In this document: one piece after another, positions 1,915 through 51,354 of the stretch
Layout of the letters: each line of letters opens with the position of its first letter
Numbering within the stretch: the stretch's first letter is position 1
Source: Jiangella alba
Lineage (GTDB): Bacteria; Actinomycetota; Actinomycetes; Jiangellales; Jiangellaceae
Direction: 5' to 3'
DNA: 64,000 nucleotides
Assembly: GCF_900106035.1 (NCBI RefSeq)
Contig: NZ_FNUC01000004.1
Coordinates: 1,116,001 to 1,180,000 of the forward strand
Notes under the pieces: generated by a model
The model's database searches: none
What the model saw: the letters and a program-made list of their open reading frames with translations, nothing else
What the model was told of the DNA's origin: nothing
Program-made: the position numbers and the translations under genes

Positions 1915-3750
1915 ATGCTGCTCCCGCGTCCTCACCGCCTCGTGACGGCCAGGATCCCCGAGCGTGACGAGGTCGGCGTCGGGTCCGTCGTCATCGAGGC
2001 CGGCGCACACTGCGACACCGCGGCCGCCGTGCTGGCGGACCTGCCGACGGCGCCCGGCGGCGAGCCGATCACCGTCGCCGTCACCGTCGACGAAGCGCGC
2101 GGCGGGCCGCCGGAGGGCTACCGCCTGGTCGTCGACGGAACCCACGTCACGATCACCGGGTCGGACCCGGCCGGCGCGTTCTACGGCGCTCAGACGCTAC
2201 GGGCGCTGACGGCGGACGGCGTGCTGCCGCCGGTGACCGTCGAGGACCGCCCTGACCTGCGCTGGCGCGGCACGATCGAGGGCTTCTACGGCCCGCCGTG
2301 GTCGCACGCCGACCGGCTGGCGCACCTGGAGTTCGCCGGCCGGCACAAGCTCAACACATACGTCTACGCACCGAAGGACGACCCGTACCACCGCAAGCAG
2401 TGGCGCGAGCCGTACCCGGAAGCCGAGCTGGCGCGCATCGGCGAACTGGTCACCGCGGCACGGAGCTCGCACGTGCGCTTCGTCTTCTCCGTCTCGCCCG
2501 GGCTCTCGATGGTCTACAGCGACCGGGCCGAGCTGGACCTGCTGCTCGCGAAGTTCGAGCAGGTCCGCGCGGTCGGCGTCGAGGACTTCGCGCTGCTGTT
2601 CGACGACATCGCGCCGGACCTCGAGCACGAGGCGGATCGGACGGCGTTCGGCACGGCGCCGGGGTCGTCGGCGCGGGCGCACGCCGCCGTCTGCCGCGCC
2701 GTCATCGAGCGGCTGGAGCGGCCGCTGATCATGGTCCCGACCGACTACGCCGGCATCGAGGCGACGCCGCACCGCGACCAGCTCGCCGCCGAGCTCCCGA
2801 CCGATGTGCTGGTGTGGTGGACCGGCCGCGACGTGGTCGTCGGCGACATCACGCGGGCCGAGATCGACGCGGCCGCGCGCTCCTACGGCCACGAACTGCT
2901 GCTCTGGGACAACTTCCCGGTCAACGACTTCGACTTCCCGCGGCTGTTCCTCGGCCCGCTCGTCGGCCGGACGACGGACCTGGACGGCGCGCCGCTGGCC
3001 GGGATCACGGCGAACCCGATGCCGCACGAGGCCGCGTCGCGGATCGCCGTCGCGACCGTCGCCGACTGGGCGTGGAACCTGGCGGCGTACGACCCGGCCG
3101 ACGCGCATGAGCGCGCACTGGACGCCGTTGGGGCCACGGAGGCGGTGCGGACGCTGGCCCGCGCATGTACGTCGTGGCCGCCGTCGGCGCCGCAGGATCC
3201 GGAACTGTCGGCGTTGATCGAGGCCGCACTGGGTGGCTCGCCCGCGGCGGCGGACGCGTTGCGGGACCGGTTCGAGGCGATGGTCGCCGCCGCCCCCGAC
3301 GACGACCGTGCGCCGGATCCCGCGCCGCAGGCCGCTGACCAGCGCGAACGCCGAGTGTCTGAGCCCACCCGTAGGGTGGGGTCCCTCCCTACCGGGGCGG
3401 GGTCCACCTACCAGCTCGCGGCGGCGCCACAAGCCGTCGCGTCGGATCCGGCCGACGATTCGCGCCCGGCCGACGGGTCGCAGCGGTCGGCCGACGAGTC
3501 GCAGCCCACGGCCGACGAGCAGCGGCGGTCGGCCGAGCGGATGGAGCGCGAGGTCACGCCGTGGCTGGTCGCGTTGGCCGACACCGGCCGGGCCGGGCTG
3601 GCCGCCCTGGCGGCGCTCGCCCCGTCGGCCGGCGACGCGGGCCGGACGACGGCCGCCCAGGCGCTCGCCGTCGCCGAGGCGCACGAGGAGCAGAACATCC
3701 TCCGCGGCGTCGTGCCACCCTTCGTACGCGCCGTCCTCGACCGGGGTTGA
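1915..3750 (+). CDS. GH84-type beta-N-acetylglucosaminidase (hyaluronidase/O-GlcNAcase family)
   Basis: This 611-residue protein has an N-terminal GH20b-like alpha/beta domain (about 1-110) and a GH84 TIM barrel opening with RGTIEGFYGPPW. The catalytic Asp-Asp pair (LLFDDI) lies at about residues 230-231. Family members remove beta-linked GlcNAc by substrate assistance. No signal peptide is visible, so it probably acts inside the cell. Residues 480-500 are encoded by a ~58-bp repeat that also occurs in the oxidase gene at 47657-50497, and the next 50 residues are a Ser/Asp/Gln-rich low-complexity stretch. The C-terminal tail is therefore likely a flexible, recently altered linker region. Confidence 0.85.
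   Translation: MLLPRPHRLVTARIPERDEVGVGSVVIEAGAHCDTAAAVLADLPTAPGGEPITVAVTVDEARGGPPEGYRLVVDGTHVTITGSDPAGAFYGAQTLRALTADGVLPPVTVEDRPDLRWRGTIEGFYGPPWSHADRLAHLEFAGRHKLNTYVYAPKDDPYHRKQWREPYPEAELARIGELVTAARSSHVRFVFSVSPGLSMVYSDRAELDLLLAKFEQVRAVGVEDFALLFDDIAPDLEHEADRTAFGTAPGSSARAHAAVCRAVIERLERPLIMVPTDYAGIEATPHRDQLAAELPTDVLVWWTGRDVVVGDITRAEIDAAARSYGHELLLWDNFPVNDFDFPRLFLGPLVGRTTDLDGAPLAGITANPMPHEAASRIAVATVADWAWNLAAYDPADAHERALDAVGATEAVRTLARACTSWPPSAPQDPELSALIEAALGGSPAAADALRDRFEAMVAAAPDDDRAPDPAPQAADQRERRVSEPTRRVGSLPTGAGSTYQLAAAPQAVASDPADDSRPADGSQRSADESQPTADEQRRSAERMEREVTPWLVALADTGRAGLAALAALAPSAGDAGRTTAAQALAVAEAHEEQNILRGVVPPFVRAVLDRG
3356..3413 (+). repeat. Dispersed in-frame repeat, copy 1
   Basis: These 58 bases match the reverse complement of 48393-48450 with only about four differences; a diverged third copy lies at about 18467-18514. 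The repeat contains the short inverted arms GTAGGG/CCCTAC. Here it is read as RRVGSLPTGAGSTY within the GH84 gene without breaking the frame. Confidence 0.85.
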
Positions 3751-16750: not shown

Positions 16751-17497
16751 GTGCGCTACACCGACGCGCCGCGCCGTCGCGACGAGCTGCTGCGACGCCT
16801 GCGGACGACCGGCTACCTGTCCGCGGCCCACGCGGCGGCCGACCTGGACGTCTCGGAGATGACGATCCGGCGCGACCTGCGGCAGCTCGAGGTCGACGGG
16901 GTCGCCGTGCGGGTCACCGGCGGCGCGCGGCTGCCCGACGGCGACGGTGTGCCGTTCGAGCTGCGCGCGGACCGCTCCGCCGCGGGGAAGGCCGCGGTGG
17001 CCCGGGCGGTGGCGAAGCTGCTGCCGGACGGTGCGACGGTGGCGCTGGACTCCGGAACGACGGTCGCCCGGCTGGCCGAGCTACTGCCCGCCGGGCTCAC
17101 CGTCGTCACGCATTCAGTGCCGGTCGTGACGGTGTGCGCGGCGCGGCCGGACCTGCGGCTGATCGGGCTCGGCGGGGTCTTCAACCCGGCGACACGGTCG
17201 TTCGGCGGGCCGGCGGTGCGTGCCGCGTTGTCGGACATCGTGGTGGACGTCGCTGTGCTGTCGGCGACCGCAGTCGGGCCGTCCGGCGTGTTCTGCGCCG
17301 ACCCGTACGACGCCGAGACGAAGCGTGCGCTGGCCGCGGCGGCGCGGTCGGTCGTCGTGGCGGCCGACGGGTCCAAGCTGGCGGCGCGGGCGCCGATCCG
17401 GTTCGCGTCCTTGGAATCCGTGTCGACGCTGGTCACCGACGCGTCCGCGGATGTCGCGGCGGTCCGGGCTGCGGGGGCGCGGGTGATCCAGGCGTGA
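16751..17497 (+). CDS. DeoR-family transcriptional regulator
   Basis: 248 residues with an N-terminal helix-turn-helix (DLDVSEMTIRRDLRQLEVDG, about 28-47) and a C-terminal sugar-phosphate-sensing domain (LDSGTTVARLAELL, VVVAADGSKL). The GTG at 16751 was chosen over upstream in-frame codons because RYTDAPRRRDELL begins the family alignment. It overlaps otnK (GTGA). It likely controls both its own operon and the divergent aldolase operon. Confidence 0.9.
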   Translation: MRYTDAPRRRDELLRRLRTTGYLSAAHAAADLDVSEMTIRRDLRQLEVDGVAVRVTGGARLPDGDGVPFELRADRSAAGKAAVARAVAKLLPDGATVALDSGTTVARLAELLPAGLTVVTHSVPVVTVCAARPDLRLIGLGGVFNPATRSFGGPAVRAALSDIVVDVAVLSATAVGPSGVFCADPYDAETKRALAAAARSVVVAADGSKLAARAPIRFASLESVSTLVTDASADVAAVRAAGARVIQA

Positions 17498-19251
17498 CGG
17501 TGCTGCGGCTCGGCGTCGTGGCCGACGACGTGACCGGCGCCTGCGACCTCGCCGGCGTCGTGACGGCGGCCGGCCTGCCCGCGTCGGTACTGTTCGGCCC
17601 GCCGTCGCCGTCGGACGTGCCCCCGGACGGCGCCGAGTGTGTCGTCGTCGCGCTGCGGACCCGGACGGCGCCGGTCGCCTCCGCCGTCGCAGAGTCGGTG
17701 GCGGCCGGGCGGTGGCTGCTCTCGCATGGAGCTCAGCGGCTGTACCAGAAGTACTGCTCGACGTTCGATTCGACGGCCGCCGGGAACATCGGGCCGATCG
17801 CCGACGCGCTGGCCGGGCTGGTGGGTGGGCGATCCGTCGGCACACCGGCCACGCCCGCCGTCGGCCGGACCGTCTACCAGGGCCACCTCTTCGTCGACGG
17901 GCGACTGCTGTCGGAGTCGCCGCTACGCGACCACCCGCTGACCCCGATGACCAACGCCGACCTCGTGCGGCTGCTCTCGGCCCAGACGCCGCGGCCGGTC
18001 GGGCTCGTGCGCTGGCCCTCCGCGGGGGTCGCGGGGTTCTCGGCTGCTGAGCATGTGCTGCTGGACGCCCTCACCGACGCCGACCTCGACCGTCACGCCG
18101 CTCTCCTCGCCGACGGCCCCGACCTCCTCGGCGGCGCGTCCGGCCTGGCCGGCGCGCTGGCCCGGCACTGGGCCGCGCTGGCGCCGTCACCGCCGTCGCG
18201 GCCCGAGACCCGGCGCAGTGCGCCCTCCGCTGCCGCCTCTGCTGGCAACTCCCGTCCCGACAAGGCCCATCCCGACGTAGCTCGTCCCGACATAGCTCGT
18301 CCCGACAAGGCCCGCACCGACGTAGCTCGTCCCGACGACGCCCGCACCGACATAACTCGTCCCGACAGTGCCCATCCCGACAGTGCCCATCCCGACGACG
18401 CCCGCCCCGACATAGCTCGCCCCGACGACGCCCGTTCCGTCAACGTCGGTTCCGGCGACAGTGACACCCCGCCCGGCCGGGTGGGAGGCCCACCCTACGG
18501 GCGGGCACCGACACACTCCGCCGCGACGACCCGGCCACCTCTGGTTTCGGCGCCGCAGGCCGGGTCGCTGCGGACGCCGGGTGACTGGCCGGTGCTGCCA
18601 CCGGGCGGCCGTGTCGTGCTGGCGGGCAGTTGCTCCGCGCGGACCCGCGAGCAGATCGCCGCGTTCGACGGGCCGGTCATCCGGATTGCCGTCGGCGACC
18701 TCGCAGCCGACTCCGCCGCCGATCCGGCGGCCGGCACAGCCACCGGCACCGCAGCCCATCACGGGCCCGACCCAGCCACCGGCACCGCAGCCCACCACAG
18801 GCCCGACGCGACCACCGACGCGGCCACCGGCACCGCAGCCGACCGCGTGGCCGGCCCAGCCCGCGCCGTCACGATCGCCGTCGGCGAGGCATTGGCGGCA
18901 CTCCCCAAAGGTCCGGTCGTCGTCACAACCTCGCTGCCGCCCGAGGAACTGCGCGCCGTCCAGGAACGACACGGCCGGGACCGGGGCGCGGCGTTGGCCG
19001 AGCGGGCCCTCGCCGCCGTCGCAAGCGCGCTCGCCGACGCGGGCGTGCGCCGGTTCCTCGTCGCCGGCGGCGAGACGTCCGGCGCGGTGACCGAGGCGCT
19101 CGGGATCAGGCAGGTGCGCATCGGCGCGCAGGTCGCGCCGGGCGTTCCGTGGACCGTCAGCACCGGGCCACGGCCGGTGGCGCTGCTGTTGAAGTCGGGC
19201 AACTTCGGGCCGCCCGACCTGTTCACCACCGCCTGGGAGGTGGGACCGTGA
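17494..19251 (+). CDS. otnK: Four-carbon acid-sugar kinase (OtnK/DUF1537) with repeat-expanded linker
   Basis: 585 residues, well above the usual ~420-450. The N-terminal domain (VVADDVTGACDLAG; about 1-235) and the C-terminal ATP-binding domain (LVAGGETSGAV, LLLKSGNFG; about 355-585) are intact. Between them lie 12 tandem five-residue units (18253-18432) and a diverged copy of the dispersed repeat (about 18467-18514); a 12-residue repeat lies inside the C-terminal domain (18721-18850). The family phosphorylates 3-oxo-tetronates or related acids. It is coupled to DeoR and OtnC by GTGA overlaps. The insertions may affect activity; the flanking motifs suggest the enzyme is still made. Confidence 0.85.
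   Translation: MTVLRLGVVADDVTGACDLAGVVTAAGLPASVLFGPPSPSDVPPDGAECVVVALRTRTAPVASAVAESVAAGRWLLSHGAQRLYQKYCSTFDSTAAGNIGPIADALAGLVGGRSVGTPATPAVGRTVYQGHLFVDGRLLSESPLRDHPLTPMTNADLVRLLSAQTPRPVGLVRWPSAGVAGFSAAEHVLLDALTDADLDRHAALLADGPDLLGGASGLAGALARHWAALAPSPPSRPETRRSAPSAAASAGNSRPDKAHPDVARPDIARPDKARTDVARPDDARTDITRPDSAHPDSAHPDDARPDIARPDDARSVNVGSGDSDTPPGRVGGPPYGRAPTHSAATTRPPLVSAPQAGSLRTPGDWPVLPPGGRVVLAGSCSARTREQIAAFDGPVIRIAVGDLAADSAADPAAGTATGTAAHHGPDPATGTAAHHRPDATTDAATGTAADRVAGPARAVTIAVGEALAALPKGPVVVTTSLPPEELRAVQERHGRDRGAALAERALAAVASALADAGVRRFLVAGGETSGAVTEALGIRQVRIGAQVAPGVPWTVSTGPRPVALLLKSGNFGPPDLFTTAWEVGP
18253..18432 (+). repeat. 15-bp minisatellite, 12 units, inside otnK
   Basis: Twelve tandem 15-base units read as five-residue blocks of the type [RH][PT]D-x-[AT] with x = K, V, I, D or S. 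The period is exactly five codons, so unit gain or loss keeps the frame. Units differ by few bases, suggesting recent expansion. Confidence 0.92.
18467..18514 (-). repeat. Dispersed in-frame repeat, copy 3 (diverged)
   Basis: The right part (CCACCCTACGGGCGGGCACC and the following GACAC) is identical to bases 48430-48454, and the left part aligns with substitutions and a short gap. Relative to the coding strand it lies in the opposite orientation to the copies at 3356 and 48393, yet the frame stays open. Confidence 0.7.
18721..18850 (+). repeat. 36-bp repeat inside otnK C-terminal half
   Basis: About 2.5 tandem copies of a 36-base unit encode ATGTAAHHGPDP-like blocks. It interrupts the C-terminal domain between VIRIAVGDLA and VTIAVGEALAALP, so it probably forms a surface loop. 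Confidence 0.8.
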
Positions 19252-23051: not shown

Positions 23052-23370
23052 AGCGAGATCGGCCCGGCCGGTCCCGGCACGAGCCGCCAGCCGACGGGGC
23101 AACCCGACCGGACCCAGGATTTGACGCCGCCGACGGTGAGCCTGCCGGAGCGCCCGGGAACCTGGTCGGGCTCGGCGCCCAGGCGATGGCCGTCGCAGGG
23201 CTGCGGGCACTGCTGGACGGCGACGTTCGGCGCCGCTGCGGACGGCGGCCCGGGCGACTGGTGCGGCCGGCGCGCTCCTCCGGGTTGACGGTCCACTGCG
23301 GGCGCCTGGACGGCGATGCGGTACGACCACGGCTTGCCGCCGGCCGAGTGGTCCGACTAGCTGCCGGATC
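23052..23370. other. Gene-free gap after the MFS transporter
   Basis: No gene is supported here. A minus-strand open frame (around VGGVKSWVRSGCPVGW) has no start or ribosome site and may be a gene remnant. The rest of the gap to 23975 is the tandem repeat region. Confidence 0.5.
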
Positions 23371-23970
23371 CGGTCGTCACCGCGCCGTGACGGGCAACGT
23401 GCGCCGCCGACAAGATCGGCGTAGACCCGCGCGACATCGGCCGCCAGCACTCGCCCGTCGCGACCGACGGCCGTGTGACCCGGCCATCTCCCGAGCTCCG
23501 GTCATTGCGGCTCGGTGACCGACGGCGATGCGGTCCGGCTCCGGCCAGTTGCAGGCTCCGGTCGTCACCGCGCCGTGACGGGGACCACCTGCACCGCCGA
23601 CCACGTCGGCGTAGACCCGCGCGACCTCAGCTGCCGGACATCGCACCTCGCCGCGCACCCCGACCGACGGCCATGTGGCCCGACCATCTCCAGGCTCCGC
23701 TCATCGGCCCCGCTGCGACAGACGGCCATACGGTCCCGGCTCCGGTGATCGCCGCGCCGTGACGGGCAACCTGCGCCGCCGACAAGGTCGGATTAGACCC
23801 GCGCGACGTCAGCTGCCGGAACGCCGCACGTCGCCGCGCGCCGTGACCGACGGCCGTGTGGCGCCGCCATGTCCCGGGCTCCGCTCGTCGCCGCGCCGTA
23901 GCCGACGGCGACGCGGTCCCGGCTCCGGCCGTCGCTGCGCCGTGACCGACGGCCATGCCGTGCCGGCTCC
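23371..23970. repeat. Decayed tandem copies of the adjacent dehydrogenase 3' end
   Basis: The ~80 bases encoding the dehydrogenase C-terminus (VARVYADLV...) recur in degraded form starting near 23371, 23560 and 23745, with spacings of about 185-190 bases and further fragments near 23885 and 23930. Two copies still encode VARVYADLVGG or VARVYADVVGG; the third is out of frame. No functional start or ribosome site is seen. Confidence 0.75.
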
Positions 23971-23975
23971 GGTCG

Positions 23976-24572
23976 TCACCGCGCCGTGACGGGCACCACC
24001 TGACCCGTCCCCGTCCCATCGACGAGGTCGGCGTAGACACGGGCGACCTCGGCCGCCGGGACGCCGGGATCGGGGTCCCAGCCGAACGCCTCGAGCGACT
24101 CGCGCACCCACCCCGGCGCGACGAGATTGAGTCGCAGCCCCCGCGGCAACTCGCCCGCCGCCGCCTCGACGAACGCCGCCAGCCCCGCGTTGACCAGCGC
24201 ACCGAACGACCCGCCCGGCATCGGCTCGACGAACGTGCCGCCGGTGAGCGTGACGGACCCGCCGTCGCGGAGGTGGTGCAGCGCGGCACGGGCGAGCCGC
24301 ACCTGACCGAGCAGCTTGCCCGGCAGTCCGGCCAGGAACTCGTCGTCGGGGGCCTCGACCAGGTCGGCGGTCGGCGCGTTGGCCGCACAACACACCACGG
24401 CATCGACGTCGGGCACCGACCGGAACAGCTCCTCCACCGTCGCCGGCTCGGCCATGTCGACGACCACCGGCCCGCGCCGGGACGCCCGCACCACCTCGTG
24501 CCCGCGCCCGGTCAGCTCCTCGGCCACCGCCGTGCCCACGATGCCGCTCGCCCCGATGACGACGATCTTCAC
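23976..24572 (-). CDS. Short-chain dehydrogenase
   Basis: 198 residues, short for this superfamily. The N-terminus IVVIGASGIVGTAVAEEL is an NAD(P)-binding motif. The usual YxxxK is replaced by a segment FGALVNAGLAAFVEAAA, as in small atypical members; LRLNLVAPGWVRESL follows. The GTG at 24572 has a GGAGG ribosome site. Downstream of its stop its own C-terminal coding sequence is repeated in decayed form. Confidence 0.85.
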   Translation of the reverse strand: MKIVVIGASGIVGTAVAEELTGRGHEVVRASRRGPVVVDMAEPATVEELFRSVPDVDAVVCCAANAPTADLVEAPDDEFLAGLPGKLLGQVRLARAALHHLRDGGSVTLTGGTFVEPMPGGSFGALVNAGLAAFVEAAAGELPRGLRLNLVAPGWVRESLEAFGWDPDPGVPAAEVARVYADLVDGTGTGQVVPVTAR

Positions 24573-42084: not shown

Positions 42085-43052
42085 AGGCCCCGCACCCCCG
42101 CGACGACGGCGGCAGCGGCGGCCAGCGCCCATCCGCGGCGCCGGGCCAGCCGCAGCGCCGCGGCGACGCCGTCAGACGACACCGCCCGGCCACCCGCGCC
42201 CAGGTCGTAGACGCCGGGCTTGGCGAGGTGCACCCCGAGCCGCAGCGCCAGCGCCGCCATCGGCCAGCCCGCATTCGGCGACGGGGTCAGTGCGGCCTCG
42301 GCGCGCAGCCGGCCCCACGGCACCCGGCGACCGGCCAGCAACAGGCCGGTGATCCGTGCGGGCAGCAGATTGAGCAGGTCGTCGGCGCGGGCCGCGACTC
42401 GGCCGGCGTGGTTCCAGCGTGGCGTGCGGTAGCCCCACACGGCGTCGGCGGTGTTGGCGAACCGGTATGCCGCGGCCGCGGGCAGCCCGCCCGCCGCGTA
42501 CCAGAGCAGCGGCGCGACGACGGAGTCGGACAGGTTCTCGCCCAGCGACTCGACCGCCGCCTGCCGGACCTCGTCGGCCGTCAGGGCGGACACGTCGCGG
42601 CTGACGATGCGCGCCACGGCCGCCCGGCCCGCCGTCACGCCACCGGAGACCAGGGCCCGCTCGACCCCGGCGACCTCGTCGAGCAGCATGCGGTGCGCGA
42701 ACAGCGGCCACAGCGCCGCGCCGGCGACGACCGGGCGCATCGGACCGGGCAGCCGTCCCGCCGCCCGCGACACCACGACGCCCGCTCCGTACGCCGTCGC
42801 CGCGCCCACGGCCCACGCCAGCCCGCCGGCCACCACCGCGCGAGCCGGTGGACCCGGCGGCACCCGCCGCCCGGCCCACGTCAGGTAGCGCCCGGCCCAG
42901 CGCACCGGGTGCGCGGCCAGCGGCGGCTCCCGGAACGCGGCGTCCAGCCCCACGGCGACCGCGACGGCTGCCGCGGCGCCAGCCCGTCGCCCTTTGCAAT
43001 GAGCACCGATACGCACCGGTGCGTAGTAGTGCTCATTGCAAAGGGGGCTCAT
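42081..43052 (-). CDS. cobD: Adenosylcobinamide-phosphate synthase, CobD/CbiB
   Basis: 323 residues with several membrane segments. The family start (GLDAAFREPPLAAHPVRWAG) and SLGENLSDSVVAPLLWY, NTADAVWGYR and LTPSPNAGWPMAALA are clear. It attaches aminopropanol (phosphate) to the corrin ring. Residues 3-21 (CNEHYYAPVRIGAHCKG) are not family sequence: they come from a 56-base palindrome lying just inside the start. ATG 43052 overlaps the ATPase stop (ATGA), which supports it; a later start inside the gene would drop the palindrome. Confidence 0.9.
   Translation of the reverse strand: MSPLCNEHYYAPVRIGAHCKGRRAGAAAAVAVAVGLDAAFREPPLAAHPVRWAGRYLTWAGRRVPPGPPARAVVAGGLAWAVGAATAYGAGVVVSRAAGRLPGPMRPVVAGAALWPLFAHRMLLDEVAGVERALVSGGVTAGRAAVARIVSRDVSALTADEVRQAAVESLGENLSDSVVAPLLWYAAGGLPAAAAYRFANTADAVWGYRTPRWNHAGRVAARADDLLNLLPARITGLLLAGRRVPWGRLRAEAALTPSPNAGWPMAALALRLGVHLAKPGVYDLGAGGRAVSSDGVAAALRLARRRGWALAAAAAVVAGVRGL
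42990..43045. repeat. 56-bp palindrome at the start of cobD/cbiB
   Basis: Outer arms of 17 bases (42990-43006 and 43029-43045) are perfectly complementary. After a 3-base bulge an inner 8-base stem (TACGCACC/GGTGCGTA) closes with no loop. The whole lies within codons 3-21 of the gene. Confidence 0.92.
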
Positions 43053-45929: not shown

Positions 45930-46137
45930 GCCGATGGCCGGTAGCCACCTGCGAACCGCCCTTCTACCGAGGACGAATCCGAGCCACGAGGCTGGCGACC
46001 TGACTCGTCCGTCCGCGGCAGGCGGGCGGCTTCACAGTTGCGGGACAGCGCCGGAATCGAACCGGACTTCGCAGACACTCGTCGCACCCGGGCCGGAGCC
46101 CGGGCATTCGCGATCCTATCGTCTCCGGCGCTGTCCG
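45930..46137 (-). promoter_or_regulatory. Cobalamin (AdoCbl) riboswitch
   Basis: On the minus strand the conserved core CGCTGTCCCGCAACTGTGA (46049-46031) is followed by GAGTCAGGTCGCCAGCC (46006-45990), the conserved core and B12-box-like elements of cobalamin riboswitches. The leader starts with GGACAGCGCCGGAG and ends just before the btuF ribosome site. High B12 would shut the whole uptake and salvage operon. Confidence 0.9.
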
Positions 46138-47656: not shown

Positions 47657-50497
47657 CTACGTTGACGCGCGGCGGGCGCCGGATGTGACCGCACCGCGCA
47701 CCAGCAGCTCGGCGAGGTGCAGGCCGCGCACCCCGGCCAGGTGGCCGGCCTGCGTGCGGCAGGACAGCCCGTCGGCCAGCAGGACGGCGCCGGGCGGGGC
47801 CGCGCGCAGGGCCGGCAGCAACGCGGTCTCGGCCACCGCGACCGAGACGTCGTAGTGGCCGCGCTCCATGCCGAAGTTGCCGGCCAGCCCGCAGCACCCG
47901 GCCAGCACGGTGAGGTTCGCGCCCAGCTCGCGCAGCAGCGCCTCGTCCGGCCCGTACCCCATGACGGCGTGGTGGTGGCAATGCGGCTGCACCACCACGT
48001 CAAGGCCGCCGAGGTCCGGCCGCTCCCACGCGTCGTCGCCGGTCAGCAGCTCGGCCAGCGTCACGGTCCCGGCGGCGACGACGTTCGCGCGCGGGTCGTG
48101 CGGCAGCAGCTCGACCAGGTCCGAGCGCAGCACGGCCGTGCACGACGGCTCCAGCCCGACGATCGGCACGCCCTCGTCGGCATACGGCGACAGCGCGTCG
48201 ACCAGCCCGGTCAGCCGGTGCTTCGCGGCCGTGAGCTGCCCGGTGGTGATCCAGGTCAGCCCGCAGCACACGCCCGGCGGCGGCGTCAGCACCTCGTACC
48301 CGGCCGACTCGAGCAGCTCGACCGCGGCCACCCCGATGGACGGCGACAGCAGGTCGGTGAAGGTGTCGACCCACAGCAGCACGCGCGGCCGGTGGTAGGT
48401 GGACCCCGCCCCGGTAGGGAGGGACCCCACCCTACGGGCGGGCACCGACACCCGGCGCTTGAACCACCGGTGGAACGTCATCGGCGCGAACCGGGGGATC
48501 GACCGGCGCGGGTCCATGCCGCCCAGCCGCAGCGCCAGCCGCTCGATCGGGCGGACGGCGAGCAGCGCGTTCAGCGGGCGGGCGAACCGCGACGCCGGGA
48601 CGGCCCAGCGGGGCAGCCGGCCGAGCGTGTAGTGCGTCCACGGCCGCCGGCGACCCGCGTAGGCGCGGTGCAGCACCTCGGACTTGTACGTGGCCATGTC
48701 GACGCCGGCCGGGCAGTCCGTGCCGCACGCCTTGCAGGACAGGCACAGGTCGAGCGCTTCGTGCACCTCCGGCGCGCGCCAGTCGCGGGCGACCAGCGAA
48801 CCGTTCGCCAGCTCCTGCAGCACCCGGGCGCGGCCGCGCGTCGACGTCGTCTCGTCGCCGACCGCCACGAACGACGGGCACATGAAGCCGCCGCTCGCGG
48901 TGAGGTCGGCCCGGCACTTGCCGACGCCGACGCAGCGGTGCAGCGCGTTGGTCACGTCGCCGCCGTCGTGCGTGAACGCGAACCCGTCGGCGGCGGGCAA
49001 CGGCCGAGCGGCCGGACGGCGCAGGTCGCGGTCGAGCGGCGCGGGCCGGACCACGACCTCCGGGTTGAGCCGGTCGTCGGGGTCGAACAGCGCCTTGAAC
49101 CGCTCGAAGACGCCGATCATCCGGTCGGAGTACAGGTACGGCAGCAGCTCGCCGCGGGCACGTCCGTCGCCGTGCTCGCCGGACAGCGAGCCGCCGTAGC
49201 CGCCGATCAGCCGTGCGGCGTCCGTCATCAGCGACCGCAGGGCGGCCCCGCCGGTCTGCAGCGGCAGGTCGACGCGCACGTGCACGCAGCCGTCGCCGAA
49301 GTGGCCGTACGGCGATCCGGCCAGGCCGTGCTCGGTCAGCAGCGCGTCGAGGTCGCGCAGGTACGCGCCGAGGTGCTCGGGCGGCACGGCGGCGTCCTCG
49401 AGCCCGGGCCACGCCTGGGCGCCGTCGAGGGTGCGGCCGGCCAGCCCGGCGCCGTCCTCGCGGATGCGCCAGATCGCGCGCGCCTCGGGCCCGTCCGGCA
49501 GCACCCGGACGGCGGCGGTGCCGGCGTCGCTCGCCAGCACAGCAGCTTGGTCGGGCGTGCCGACCTCGACCAGCAGCCAGCCGTCGCCGGCGGGCAGGCC
49601 GGGGACGGTGCTCGGGCCGCGGCCGCGGCGGACGGTCTCGACGATGCGGAGGTCCAGACCCTCCATCGCCAGCGGCCGGTGGGTGAGCAGCGCCGGGACC
49701 GCGTCGGCGGCCGAGGCCATGTCCGGGTAGCCGAGCACCACGAGCACCGGGCTCGGCGGCGTCTCGACCAGCCGTACAGTCGCCTTCAGGACGATGCCGC
49801 AGGTGCCCTCGGTGCCGACCAGCGCCTTGGCGAGGTCGTGGCCGTGCTCCGGGAGTAGGTGCTCCAGCGAGTAGCCGGAGATCTGCCGGCCGAACCTGCC
49901 CAGCTCGGTGCGTATGACGTCGAGATTGCCGTTGACCAGCGCGGACAACCCGGGGACGGCGTCGAGGTCGCGGCCCGCGGCGAACCGGCGGCCGGCGCCA
50001 TCGAGGACGTCCACCTCGAGCACGTTGTCGGCGGTGCGGCCGAACGCGAGCGCGCGGGAGCCGCAGGCGTTGTTGCCGATCATGCCGCCGACGGTGCACC
50101 GCGACCACGTCGACGGGTCCGGCCCGAACCGCAGCCCGTGCGGCGCGGCTGCCCGTTGCAATGACCCGAGCACCACGCCGGGCTCGACGACGGCGATCCG
50201 CGCGTCGGGGTCGACCATCTCGATGTGGTTCAGGTGCGCCGACAGGTCCATGACGATGCCCGGCCCGACGGCGTTGCCGGCCACCGAGGTGCCGCCGCCG
50301 CGCGCCGTCACCGCGACACCGTGCTCGCGGGCCACCGCCACGACGCCGGCCACCTCGTCGGCGTCGCGCGGGAACACCACGGCCTGCGGCACCACCCGGT
50401 AGTTCGACGCGTCGGCCGAGTACTCGGCCCGCCGCAGCGCCGACCCGTCGACCTCGGCGATGCCGTGCGCCCGCAGCGCCGCGACGAGCTGGTTCAC
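47657..50497 (-). CDS. Fused FAD-linked oxidase and Fe-S/CCG protein (D-lactate or glycolate dehydrogenase type)
   Basis: 946 residues. An FAD-binding PCMH domain (VTARGGGTSVAGNAVGPG; about 40-220) and FAD oxidase C-terminal domain are followed by Fe-S cysteines (CLSCKACGTDCPAG; about 589) and two CCG domains (GVCCGLTWI; GCCGLAGNFG). Such fusions oxidise 2-hydroxy acids and pass electrons to the membrane. The ~58-base repeat (residues about 682-702) sits exactly between the Fe-S and CCG parts. GTG 50497 overlaps the FAH gene (GTGA). Confidence 0.92.
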   Translation of the reverse strand: MNQLVAALRAHGIAEVDGSALRRAEYSADASNYRVVPQAVVFPRDADEVAGVVAVAREHGVAVTARGGGTSVAGNAVGPGIVMDLSAHLNHIEMVDPDARIAVVEPGVVLGSLQRAAAPHGLRFGPDPSTWSRCTVGGMIGNNACGSRALAFGRTADNVLEVDVLDGAGRRFAAGRDLDAVPGLSALVNGNLDVIRTELGRFGRQISGYSLEHLLPEHGHDLAKALVGTEGTCGIVLKATVRLVETPPSPVLVVLGYPDMASAADAVPALLTHRPLAMEGLDLRIVETVRRGRGPSTVPGLPAGDGWLLVEVGTPDQAAVLASDAGTAAVRVLPDGPEARAIWRIREDGAGLAGRTLDGAQAWPGLEDAAVPPEHLGAYLRDLDALLTEHGLAGSPYGHFGDGCVHVRVDLPLQTGGAALRSLMTDAARLIGGYGGSLSGEHGDGRARGELLPYLYSDRMIGVFERFKALFDPDDRLNPEVVVRPAPLDRDLRRPAARPLPAADGFAFTHDGGDVTNALHRCVGVGKCRADLTASGGFMCPSFVAVGDETTSTRGRARVLQELANGSLVARDWRAPEVHEALDLCLSCKACGTDCPAGVDMATYKSEVLHRAYAGRRRPWTHYTLGRLPRWAVPASRFARPLNALLAVRPIERLALRLGGMDPRRSIPRFAPMTFHRWFKRRVSVPARRVGSLPTGAGSTYHRPRVLLWVDTFTDLLSPSIGVAAVELLESAGYEVLTPPPGVCCGLTWITTGQLTAAKHRLTGLVDALSPYADEGVPIVGLEPSCTAVLRSDLVELLPHDPRANVVAAGTVTLAELLTGDDAWERPDLGGLDVVVQPHCHHHAVMGYGPDEALLRELGANLTVLAGCCGLAGNFGMERGHYDVSVAVAETALLPALRAAPPGAVLLADGLSCRTQAGHLAGVRGLHLAELLVRGAVTSGARRAST
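48393..48450 (-). repeat. Dispersed in-frame repeat, copy 2
   Basis: Nearly identical (about four mismatches in 58) to 3356-3413 on the opposite strand. In both genes the coding strand reads the repeat in the same direction and frame (RRVGSLPTGAGSTY). Confidence 0.85.
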
Positions 50498-51354
50498 ACC
50501 GGGCCGGCCACGGGGTTGACCAGCGGCTCCAGCCCCGACACCTCGCAGCGGGCGACGTCGCCGGCCGTGACGACGACGGCGCCCGGCGTTCCCGTCGAGA
50601 TGATGTCGCCGGGGTAGAGCGGCATGACCTTGCTGTGGAAGCTGACCAGGAACGCGGGCGAGAACCGCATGCGCCCGACGACGTTGCTGCGGCGCTGCTC
50701 GCCGTTCACGACGGTGCTGACCTCGACGCCGGCGAGATCCGGACCGCCCGGCTGGGCGGCGAGCGCCTCGGCCAGCGGGACGATGTGCGGGCCGAACGAG
50801 AAGAAGCCGGGGAAGTTCTTCGAGCGGGTCAGGAAGCGCGGGTTGCGCTGCAGGATGTCCTCGGCGGTCTGGTCGAGGACGGCGCACAGGCCGAACACGT
50901 GGTCGAGCGCGGTGTCCTCGTCGACGTTGCGGCAGTAGCGGCCGATGACCAGGCCGACCTCCGCCTCGGCCGTGACGCGCTCGCTCTGCACGGGCAGCGG
51001 GATCGGCTCGCCCGGCCCGATGATCGTGTGGTTGCCCTTGATGAACGACGCCGGCTCGTCGGGCACCACCTCGGCGAGGTCGGCCGCGTGATCGACGTAG
51101 TTGAGGCCGATGCCCCAGATCTTCGGCGGGTTCCGGTACGGCGCCGCGTACGTCACCTCGTCCGCCGGCCGGAACGCGGCGCCGTCAGCGGTGGCCGCCG
51201 CCTCCTCCACCTCGTCCATGCGCCGGTCGGCGATCAGCGACATGACGTCGCCGGTGAACTCCGGCAGCAGGTCCGCGACCACCGCCACGCCCTTCGTCGG
51301 ATGCACGACGGCGGCCCTCGGCACGTCGTCGACGAGGATGGACGCCAGGCGCAT
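50494..51354 (-). CDS. Fumarylacetoacetate hydrolase family protein
   Basis: 286 residues. The FAH core shows KIWGIGLNYVDHA, the metal ligands E-A-E in TAEAEVGLVIG, and PGDIISTGTPGAVV. Family members split or tautomerise acylpyruvates and related oxo-acids. Coupled to the 2-hydroxy-acid oxidase gene that follows (GTGA), which suggests a shared catabolic pathway for an aromatic or sugar acid. Confidence 0.93.
   Translation of the reverse strand: MRLASILVDDVPRAAVVHPTKGVAVVADLLPEFTGDVMSLIADRRMDEVEEAAATADGAAFRPADEVTYAAPYRNPPKIWGIGLNYVDHAADLAEVVPDEPASFIKGNHTIIGPGEPIPLPVQSERVTAEAEVGLVIGRYCRNVDEDTALDHVFGLCAVLDQTAEDILQRNPRFLTRSKNFPGFFSFGPHIVPLAEALAAQPGGPDLAGVEVSTVVNGEQRRSNVVGRMRFSPAFLVSFHSKVMPLYPGDIISTGTPGAVVVTAGDVARCEVSGLEPLVNPVAGPV

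Follow-up and report, generated by a model that had tools for sequence, protein, structure and literature searches.

The window analysed here, a stretch of 64,000 nucleotides from Jiangella alba (assembly GCF_900106035.1, contig NZ_FNUC01000004.1, positions 1,116,001 to 1,180,000 of the forward strand), contains a GH84-type beta-N-acetylglucosaminidase (NAGidase) gene, a sugar kinase gene and an open reading frame (ORF) for a FAD-linked oxidase/4Fe-4S protein, each of which holds one copy of a dispersed repeat that reads as a candidate stress-type promoter followed by a GC-rich hairpin (Table 1). Copies 1 and 2 are 65-nt arms with 94% identity, each running along the strand of its own gene and lying outside the Pfam domains found there. 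The preliminary description of this DNA had reported near-identical stretches of 58 bp in two unrelated genes, read in the same direction and frame; this was confirmed, with some copies continuing beyond 58 bp. In the window, the 25-mer GTAGGGTGGGGTCCCTCCCTACCGG occurs in two places only at up to three mismatches and never in 100 shuffles, and both copies translate in a single frame, with the ORFs open, as the peptide RRVGSLPTGAGSTY. Copy 1 has T where the promoter motif requires R, which breaks the motif, and the single-strand DNA fold of this copy is not unusual (z -0.23). Copy 3 is also present in the close relative G010. The true start of the FAD/4Fe-4S oxidase probably lies inside the ORF listed.

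Table 1. Repeat copies and their host genes in the window, together with one PHO-like array in the coordinates of its locus
Feature	Position	Strand	Remarks
Copy 1, promoter-hairpin repeat	3349..3413	+	In frame in the linker of the GH84-type gene; TGTC 3356-3359, TAGGGT 3372-3377, CCCTCCC 3383-3389, GGGGCGGGG 3394-3402
Copy 2	48393..48457	-	In frame in the linker of the FAD/Fe-S oxidase; motif intact, TGTCGGTG-N8-TAGGGT; TGTC 48450-48447, TAGGGT 48434-48429
Copy 3	18466..18521	-	Antisense in the sugar kinase gene, between SBD_N and NBD_C; motif intact
Tandem repeat, 15-bp units	18206..18474		Adjoins copy 3; example of tandem-repeat-rich flanks
GH84-type beta-N-acetylglucosaminidase (NAGidase) gene	1915..3750	+	Holds copy 1
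FAD-linked oxidase/4Fe-4S protein ORF	47657..50887	-	Holds copy 2
Sugar kinase gene (SBD_N, NBD_C)	17134..19251	+	Holds copy 3
Three PHO-like promoter-hairpin units in tandem	L363:1490-1800		Divergent spacer, phoX/aminotransferase gene

A search for the repeat core GTGCCCGCCCGTAGGGTGGG at up to three mismatches returned 128 matches in the genome of the strain itself (7.68 Mb, 4 contigs; 60 forward, 68 reverse), and the reversed control pattern returned none. The two window copies in coding frames are therefore not the only ones, and the earlier proposal of a dispersed, structured repeat with further copies stands. The search covered 99 genomes: this one, 11 of the same genus and 87 others. Among the Jiangella genomes other than this one, nine yielded between 7 and 200 matches, the maximum of 200 being that of G010; G003 has none and G005 has one. 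The two lowest of the nine, G006 (8) and G008 (7), exceed the background through exact or one-mismatch matches. The 87 genomes outside the genus have at most 8 matches each, the reversed control there reaching 9, and one of them, G029, has a one-mismatch match. A scan of named genomes returned 97 stretches, all from Jiangella. The repeat family is essentially confined to this genus. Out of the 128 matches, 100 distinct copies with up to three mismatches were examined individually, one row with four mismatches being excluded.

The letters shared by these copies point to a promoter of the DNA damage response. In the excerpted text of PMC5656591, the actinobacterial RecA-NDp/PafBC promoter has the consensus tTGTCRgtg, 8 nt, TAnnnT. 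In the repeat, TGTCR lies upstream of the searched core and is kept in 96-99 of 100 copies per position, and TGTCR-N11-TAnnnT is found in 93 of 100; judged by its letters, the repeat core matches a putative PafBC (RecA-NDp) damage promoter. The exact motif occurs at 63 sites in the genome, with none for the reversed control: 52 are in repeats (40 in the main subfamily, 12 in a second subfamily) and 11 are elsewhere. Five proteins downstream of these 11 non-repeat sites were searched for families, and four matched (RecA, UvrB, DEDD exonuclease and dTMP kinase), the fifth having no family. The first start codon follows the -10 element by 8 nt in recA, 7 nt in uvrB, 37 nt in the DEDD exonuclease gene and 6 nt in the dTMP kinase gene; downstream in recA there is another in-frame ATG, and the family match starts close to it. 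In the repeat, the GC-rich hairpin starts 3-7 nt past the -10 element.

The second subfamily, found through the motif search, carries the same motif with other spacer letters; its GTAG is replaced by GTAC, GATA or CTAA, and TA...T is retained. When its hairpin GCCCACCCGGCCGGGAGGGG was searched without the motif at up to two mismatches, 47 matches were obtained (control, 0), three of them complement readings of palindromes. The other 44 hairpins comprise 28 with the PafBC motif, 14 with PHO-box-like pairs of 11-nt, GTTCAC-like direct repeats, one with a degenerate PafBC site and one with neither. Among the 12 exact hairpins, 11 have the motif, with six different 8-nt spacers. The PHO box consists, according to the excerpt of PMC4415409, of two 11-nt direct repeats with a GTTCACC-like core. 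The 14 hairpins of the third subfamily lie at seven places with GTT[C/A]A-type direct repeats 11 nt apart, an arrangement resembling a PHO box. Ten flanking genes were searched at six of the seven places, and one array lies beside phoX.

Beyond the short repeat, copy-to-copy similarity extends downstream only. Past +85, one group of 14 of the 100 copies matches, the other groups matching there being tandem arrays (7) and one pair; upstream similarity is found among array members only (7), and random spacer positions match themselves only. The full element is about 560 bp long, with the repeat at its front, a variable middle and a conserved 3' hairpin of about 140 nt. Of the 14 long copies, 11 were aligned over their full length, the body being partial or shifted in others (L032 and L048). 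Identity is 0.80 at the 5' end, falls to 0.25-0.52 in the middle part and rises to as much as 0.92 in the 3' module. Across 24 sequences from several species, the 3' module forms a 44-pair hairpin with 97.2% of positions paired, and covariation amounts to 52 double-change cells versus 14.9 ± 2.8 in shuffles (0 of 500); sliding the pairing gives no more than 16. In 800 kb chosen regardless of the module, the 3'-module model found a single place in each of G000 and G010, in both cases downstream of a repeat. The RNA folds of six long copies lie 4.4-6.8 standard deviations under those of mononucleotide shuffles. Rfam 15 gave no match at gathering score in 20 element loci and, in 11 long loci, three matches at E<=10, all far below gathering score; the 3' module had no match in 72,556 plasmids or in 50,697 phages.

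Several further features were observed. L031 and L056, first read as running into a gene, proved to be copies split by insertion sequences, after which the body resumes; the two insertion sequences differ (IS481-type and DDE_Tnp_1 type) and occupy the same place in the hairpin, after CCCTCCCTAG. At about +200, L012, L015, L020 and other long copies carry an inverted repeat of about 45 nt, ATCATCCAGG...CCTGGATGAT, with highly variable arms. A type II 3' hairpin was located at L157:1407-1568, L228:541-700 and 1079-1238, L180:697-854 and L342:1237-1392, often with a second or partial inverted copy nearby; it is apparently an independent dispersed Jiangella palindrome.

Placement relative to genes was determined with a purpose-written codon-usage caller trained on 14 window ORFs, on which the class counts depend: of the 100 copies, 33 occupy convergent spacers, 38 tandem spacers and 7 divergent spacers, while 21 are in genes (8 sense, 13 antisense) and 1 is at an edge. 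Compared with the spacer bases of a 400-kb stretch (convergent 25.7%, tandem 51.7%, divergent 22.6%), the 78 classed spacer copies over-represent convergent spacers (33) and under-represent divergent ones (7; chi-square p = 0.0006). Copies are rare in divergent spacers and are therefore not general drivers of genes. In five named Jiangella species (97 loci), 103 copies comprise 23 in genes, 34 in convergent, 28 in tandem and 4 in divergent spacers, and 14 at edges. The preliminary description had likened the repeat to a protein-coding palindromic element; that it is essentially one finds no support in the 79 of 100 copies outside called genes, the 13 of 21 in-gene copies that are antisense, the conserved letters, which are those of a promoter, and the 14 copies whose similarity continues into a longer element. 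One reading phase, giving an RVG-containing peptide, is common to 7 of the 8 sense in-gene copies; of the three sense frames, one is interrupted by a TAG stop. Coding by the repeat is incidental.

The suggestion of an in-frame insertion fared better: it is real, because insert-free orthologues exist for both enzymes, so the peptide is not common to all orthologues by descent. The GH84 insert is present in 4 of 10 genomes (G000, G010, G011 and, with two copies, G004) and absent in 6 (G009, G002, G006, G001, G003 and G005), in which linker residues ~468-536 are missing; the GH84 search in G007 and G008 gave no match. With the insert the linker measures 287-647 nt, versus 89 nt in five insert-free genomes read as DNA, and in G011 the element is flanked on both sides by apparent iterations of the target peptide. 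Among seven close orthologues of the Fe-S oxidase (the six others at 86-93% DNA identity), five have the peptide, G008 retains its first part only and G006 is without it, as are seven more distant aligned homologues (72-75%).

Comparison of 400 kb between G000 and G010 (~95% identical DNA) demonstrated that six of the seven G000 copies lie in the same place and orientation, the seventh being inside a gene absent from G010 there, and that 7 of the 13 copies in G010 are without a counterpart in G000. Two sites common to both species carry different subfamilies. At one site ~65 bp of the element are unchanged, while the DNA on either side can barely be aligned. The surrounding spacer differs at the seven G010-only copies, and none of these places showed a clean empty site with a target duplication.

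The flanks of the copies are rich in tandem repeats, which cover 0.20 of the 150-bp flanks, the corresponding coverage being 0.04 for dinucleotide shuffles and 0.034 for other spacers (p = 3e-16); in five other species the values are 0.18 versus 0.038, and 0.238 versus 0.081 when restricted to GC >0.72. The 100 copies include ten close pairs, all head-to-tail, and such tandem pairs suggest local duplication of copies. Of 111 spacers, 86 could be mapped between G000 and G010, and the six that bear an element are scrambled (median matched 0.52 versus 0.94 in 80 without one). Convergent spacers without an element are equally scrambled (median 0.46, n = 14) and only six spacers bear one, so the element cannot be named as the cause of this variability. 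In the same pair of genomes, tandem and divergent spacers without the repeat have a median of ~0.95, beside the 0.46 of the 14 convergent ones.

We consider it probable, with moderate confidence, that these copies form a dispersed Jiangella family in which a stress-type promoter is paired with a GC-rich hairpin located at, or close to, the expected start, with a long form that adds the middle and the ~140-nt hairpin. Several points weigh against this assignment. Seven of the 100 copies, window copy 1 included, are without the motif; the search pattern itself contains most of the motif, which inflates the motif conservation seen in the main set; and the second-subfamily hairpin pattern was picked from motif-bearing loci, 10 of its 12 exact matches having come up before in the motif search. 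Covariation is absent from the centres of the 5' tracts, and the short 5' hairpin folds are not clearly unusual versus shuffles (z 0.0 to -1.9). Divergent spacers, the usual site of promoters, are avoided, with 7 of 78 copies on ~23% of spacer bases. The double changes of the 3' hairpin come largely from two sequence types, so that independent events are fewer than cells, and most type II 3' hairpins lack a promoter repeat in the nearest 700 nt, with L223 as an exception.

If the promoter assignment is correct, PafBC and the housekeeping RNA polymerase would transcribe the unit after DNA damage, and the PHO-like variant would be transcribed after phosphate starvation. Long copies would then yield a structured non-coding RNA and solo copies a short RNA with a 5' hairpin. 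In-gene copies would persist wherever a frame stays open, the linkers between domains in the three window genes being examples. As a guess, the hairpin might stall replication and so cause local duplications. A more far-reaching proposal, which we offer tentatively and regard as rather doubtful, is a non-coding RNA element of ~560 nt that would be mobile, multicopy and switched on by damage through PafBC, with a phosphate-starvation variant, and in which transcription under stress would promote copying, local duplication and scrambling of spacers, so that spacers and some linkers would diversify under stress.

Possible, though not likely, is that the repeat is inert selfish or passively duplicated DNA: an ancestral promoter fragment copied by duplication or recombination in GC-rich spacers, its motif kept by recent descent. 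The tandem repeats in the flanks, the scrambled spacers, the ten head-to-tail pairs and the two shared sites with different subfamilies are all consistent with such an origin; however, motif letters that stay while the 8-nt spacer varies, an identical ~65-bp element between barely alignable flanks, a long form conserved at both ends and not in its middle, and the covariation of the 3' hairpin argue against it.

We regard as unlikely a palindromic mobile repeat of the REP or RPE kind, GTAG-tagged and moved by a RAYT or coding as in Rickettsia, in which the promoter letters would be incidental. The sequence GTAGGGTGGG..CCC[A/T]CCC formally fits GTAG beside a palindrome, and GTAG before a palindrome, the convergent-spacer bias, copies within ORFs and clusters repeated together with the DNA beside them are all typical of REPs. 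According to the excerpts of PMC3733652, REPs are likewise short, palindromic and numerous, mostly intergenic between unidirectional or convergent ORFs, with some copies in ORFs and sometimes iterated with their flanks. The same excerpts tie GTAG/CGTC-tagged REPs to RAYTs and describe them as seldom forming head-to-tail pairs, whereas the Jiangella repeat has a promoter module, a ~560-bp form with a conserved 3' hairpin and head-to-tail pairs. The search for a RAYT (Y1 transposase, PF01797) gave no match in 12 Jiangella genomes at E<=1, nor in this genome at E<=10, whereas a match was returned by 10 of 14 control genomes, 6 of them over the cut-off; moreover, the second subfamily loses GTAG and keeps TA...T. 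Rickettsia RPEs, compared here by their description in those excerpts (PMC3733652), share the in-frame insertion in unrelated genes, but the Jiangella repeat lies mostly outside genes and its conserved letters are those of the promoter, not of a coding frame. The repeat resembles REPs and RPEs in habit, membership in neither being established.

Retention of the hairpins at 3' ends as transcription terminators or mRNA stabilisers is improbable: the excess in convergent spacers (33 of 78 spacer copies versus 26% of bases, p = 0.0006) is what it would lead one to expect, but this explanation does not account for the promoter motif or the PHO-like variant, nor for the long form and the antisense copies in genes. 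A linker peptide with a function at the protein level is scarcely credible, since the phase common to 7 of 8 sense copies and the peptide retained in 5 of 7 close Fe-S orthologues stand against a sense frame closed by TAG, antisense in-gene copies (13 of 21) that encode other peptides and 79 of 100 copies outside called genes.

Among known systems, RecA-NDp/PafBC promoters share the consensus and, in the excerpted texts (PMC5656591, PMC6789036, PMC8223512, PMC11804915), serve damage-response genes, whereas the Jiangella copies are many, dispersed and followed by a hairpin at the expected start. The 13E12/DUF222-HNH repeat was considered as a parent and rejected: five matches were obtained at three DUF222 places, and the three loci scanned contained no TGTCR-N11-TAnnnT. 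Putative mobile promoters (Nijveen, Matus-Garcia, van Passel) are said to be copied around the genome as the Jiangella repeat is; unlike them, the Jiangella copies avoid divergent spacers, reportedly the usual place of a promoter. Miniature inverted-repeat transposable elements (MITEs) and mycobacterial interspersed repeats are likewise said to be small, dispersed and gene-free; for the Jiangella repeat, no target duplication was seen at the sites viewed and no parent transposase was identified, Y1 being the only class searched.

Recognisable regulatory logic is rare in small dispersed bacterial repeats, and here it would be a damage-type promoter such as that before recA. The family would connect, in a testable way, stress transcription with the spread of repeats and with hypervariable spacers, and it points to a route by which proteins may gain linker peptides; scans for the damage-promoter motif in such genomes return mostly repeats. 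No description of such a repeat family was present among the open-licence literature matches listed, and the J. gansuensis genome paper (PMC5292007), in its excerpted text, mentions repeats for CRISPR only.

The window also contains a cobalamin riboswitch at 45973-46118 on the reverse strand (Rfam RF00174, 34.9 bits). A block of imperfect repeats with a period of ~185 bp spans 23339-24073, a region without a promoter-hairpin copy, and an adjacent 28-nt inverted repeat, with gapless arms that are 89% complementary, lies at 42990-43045.

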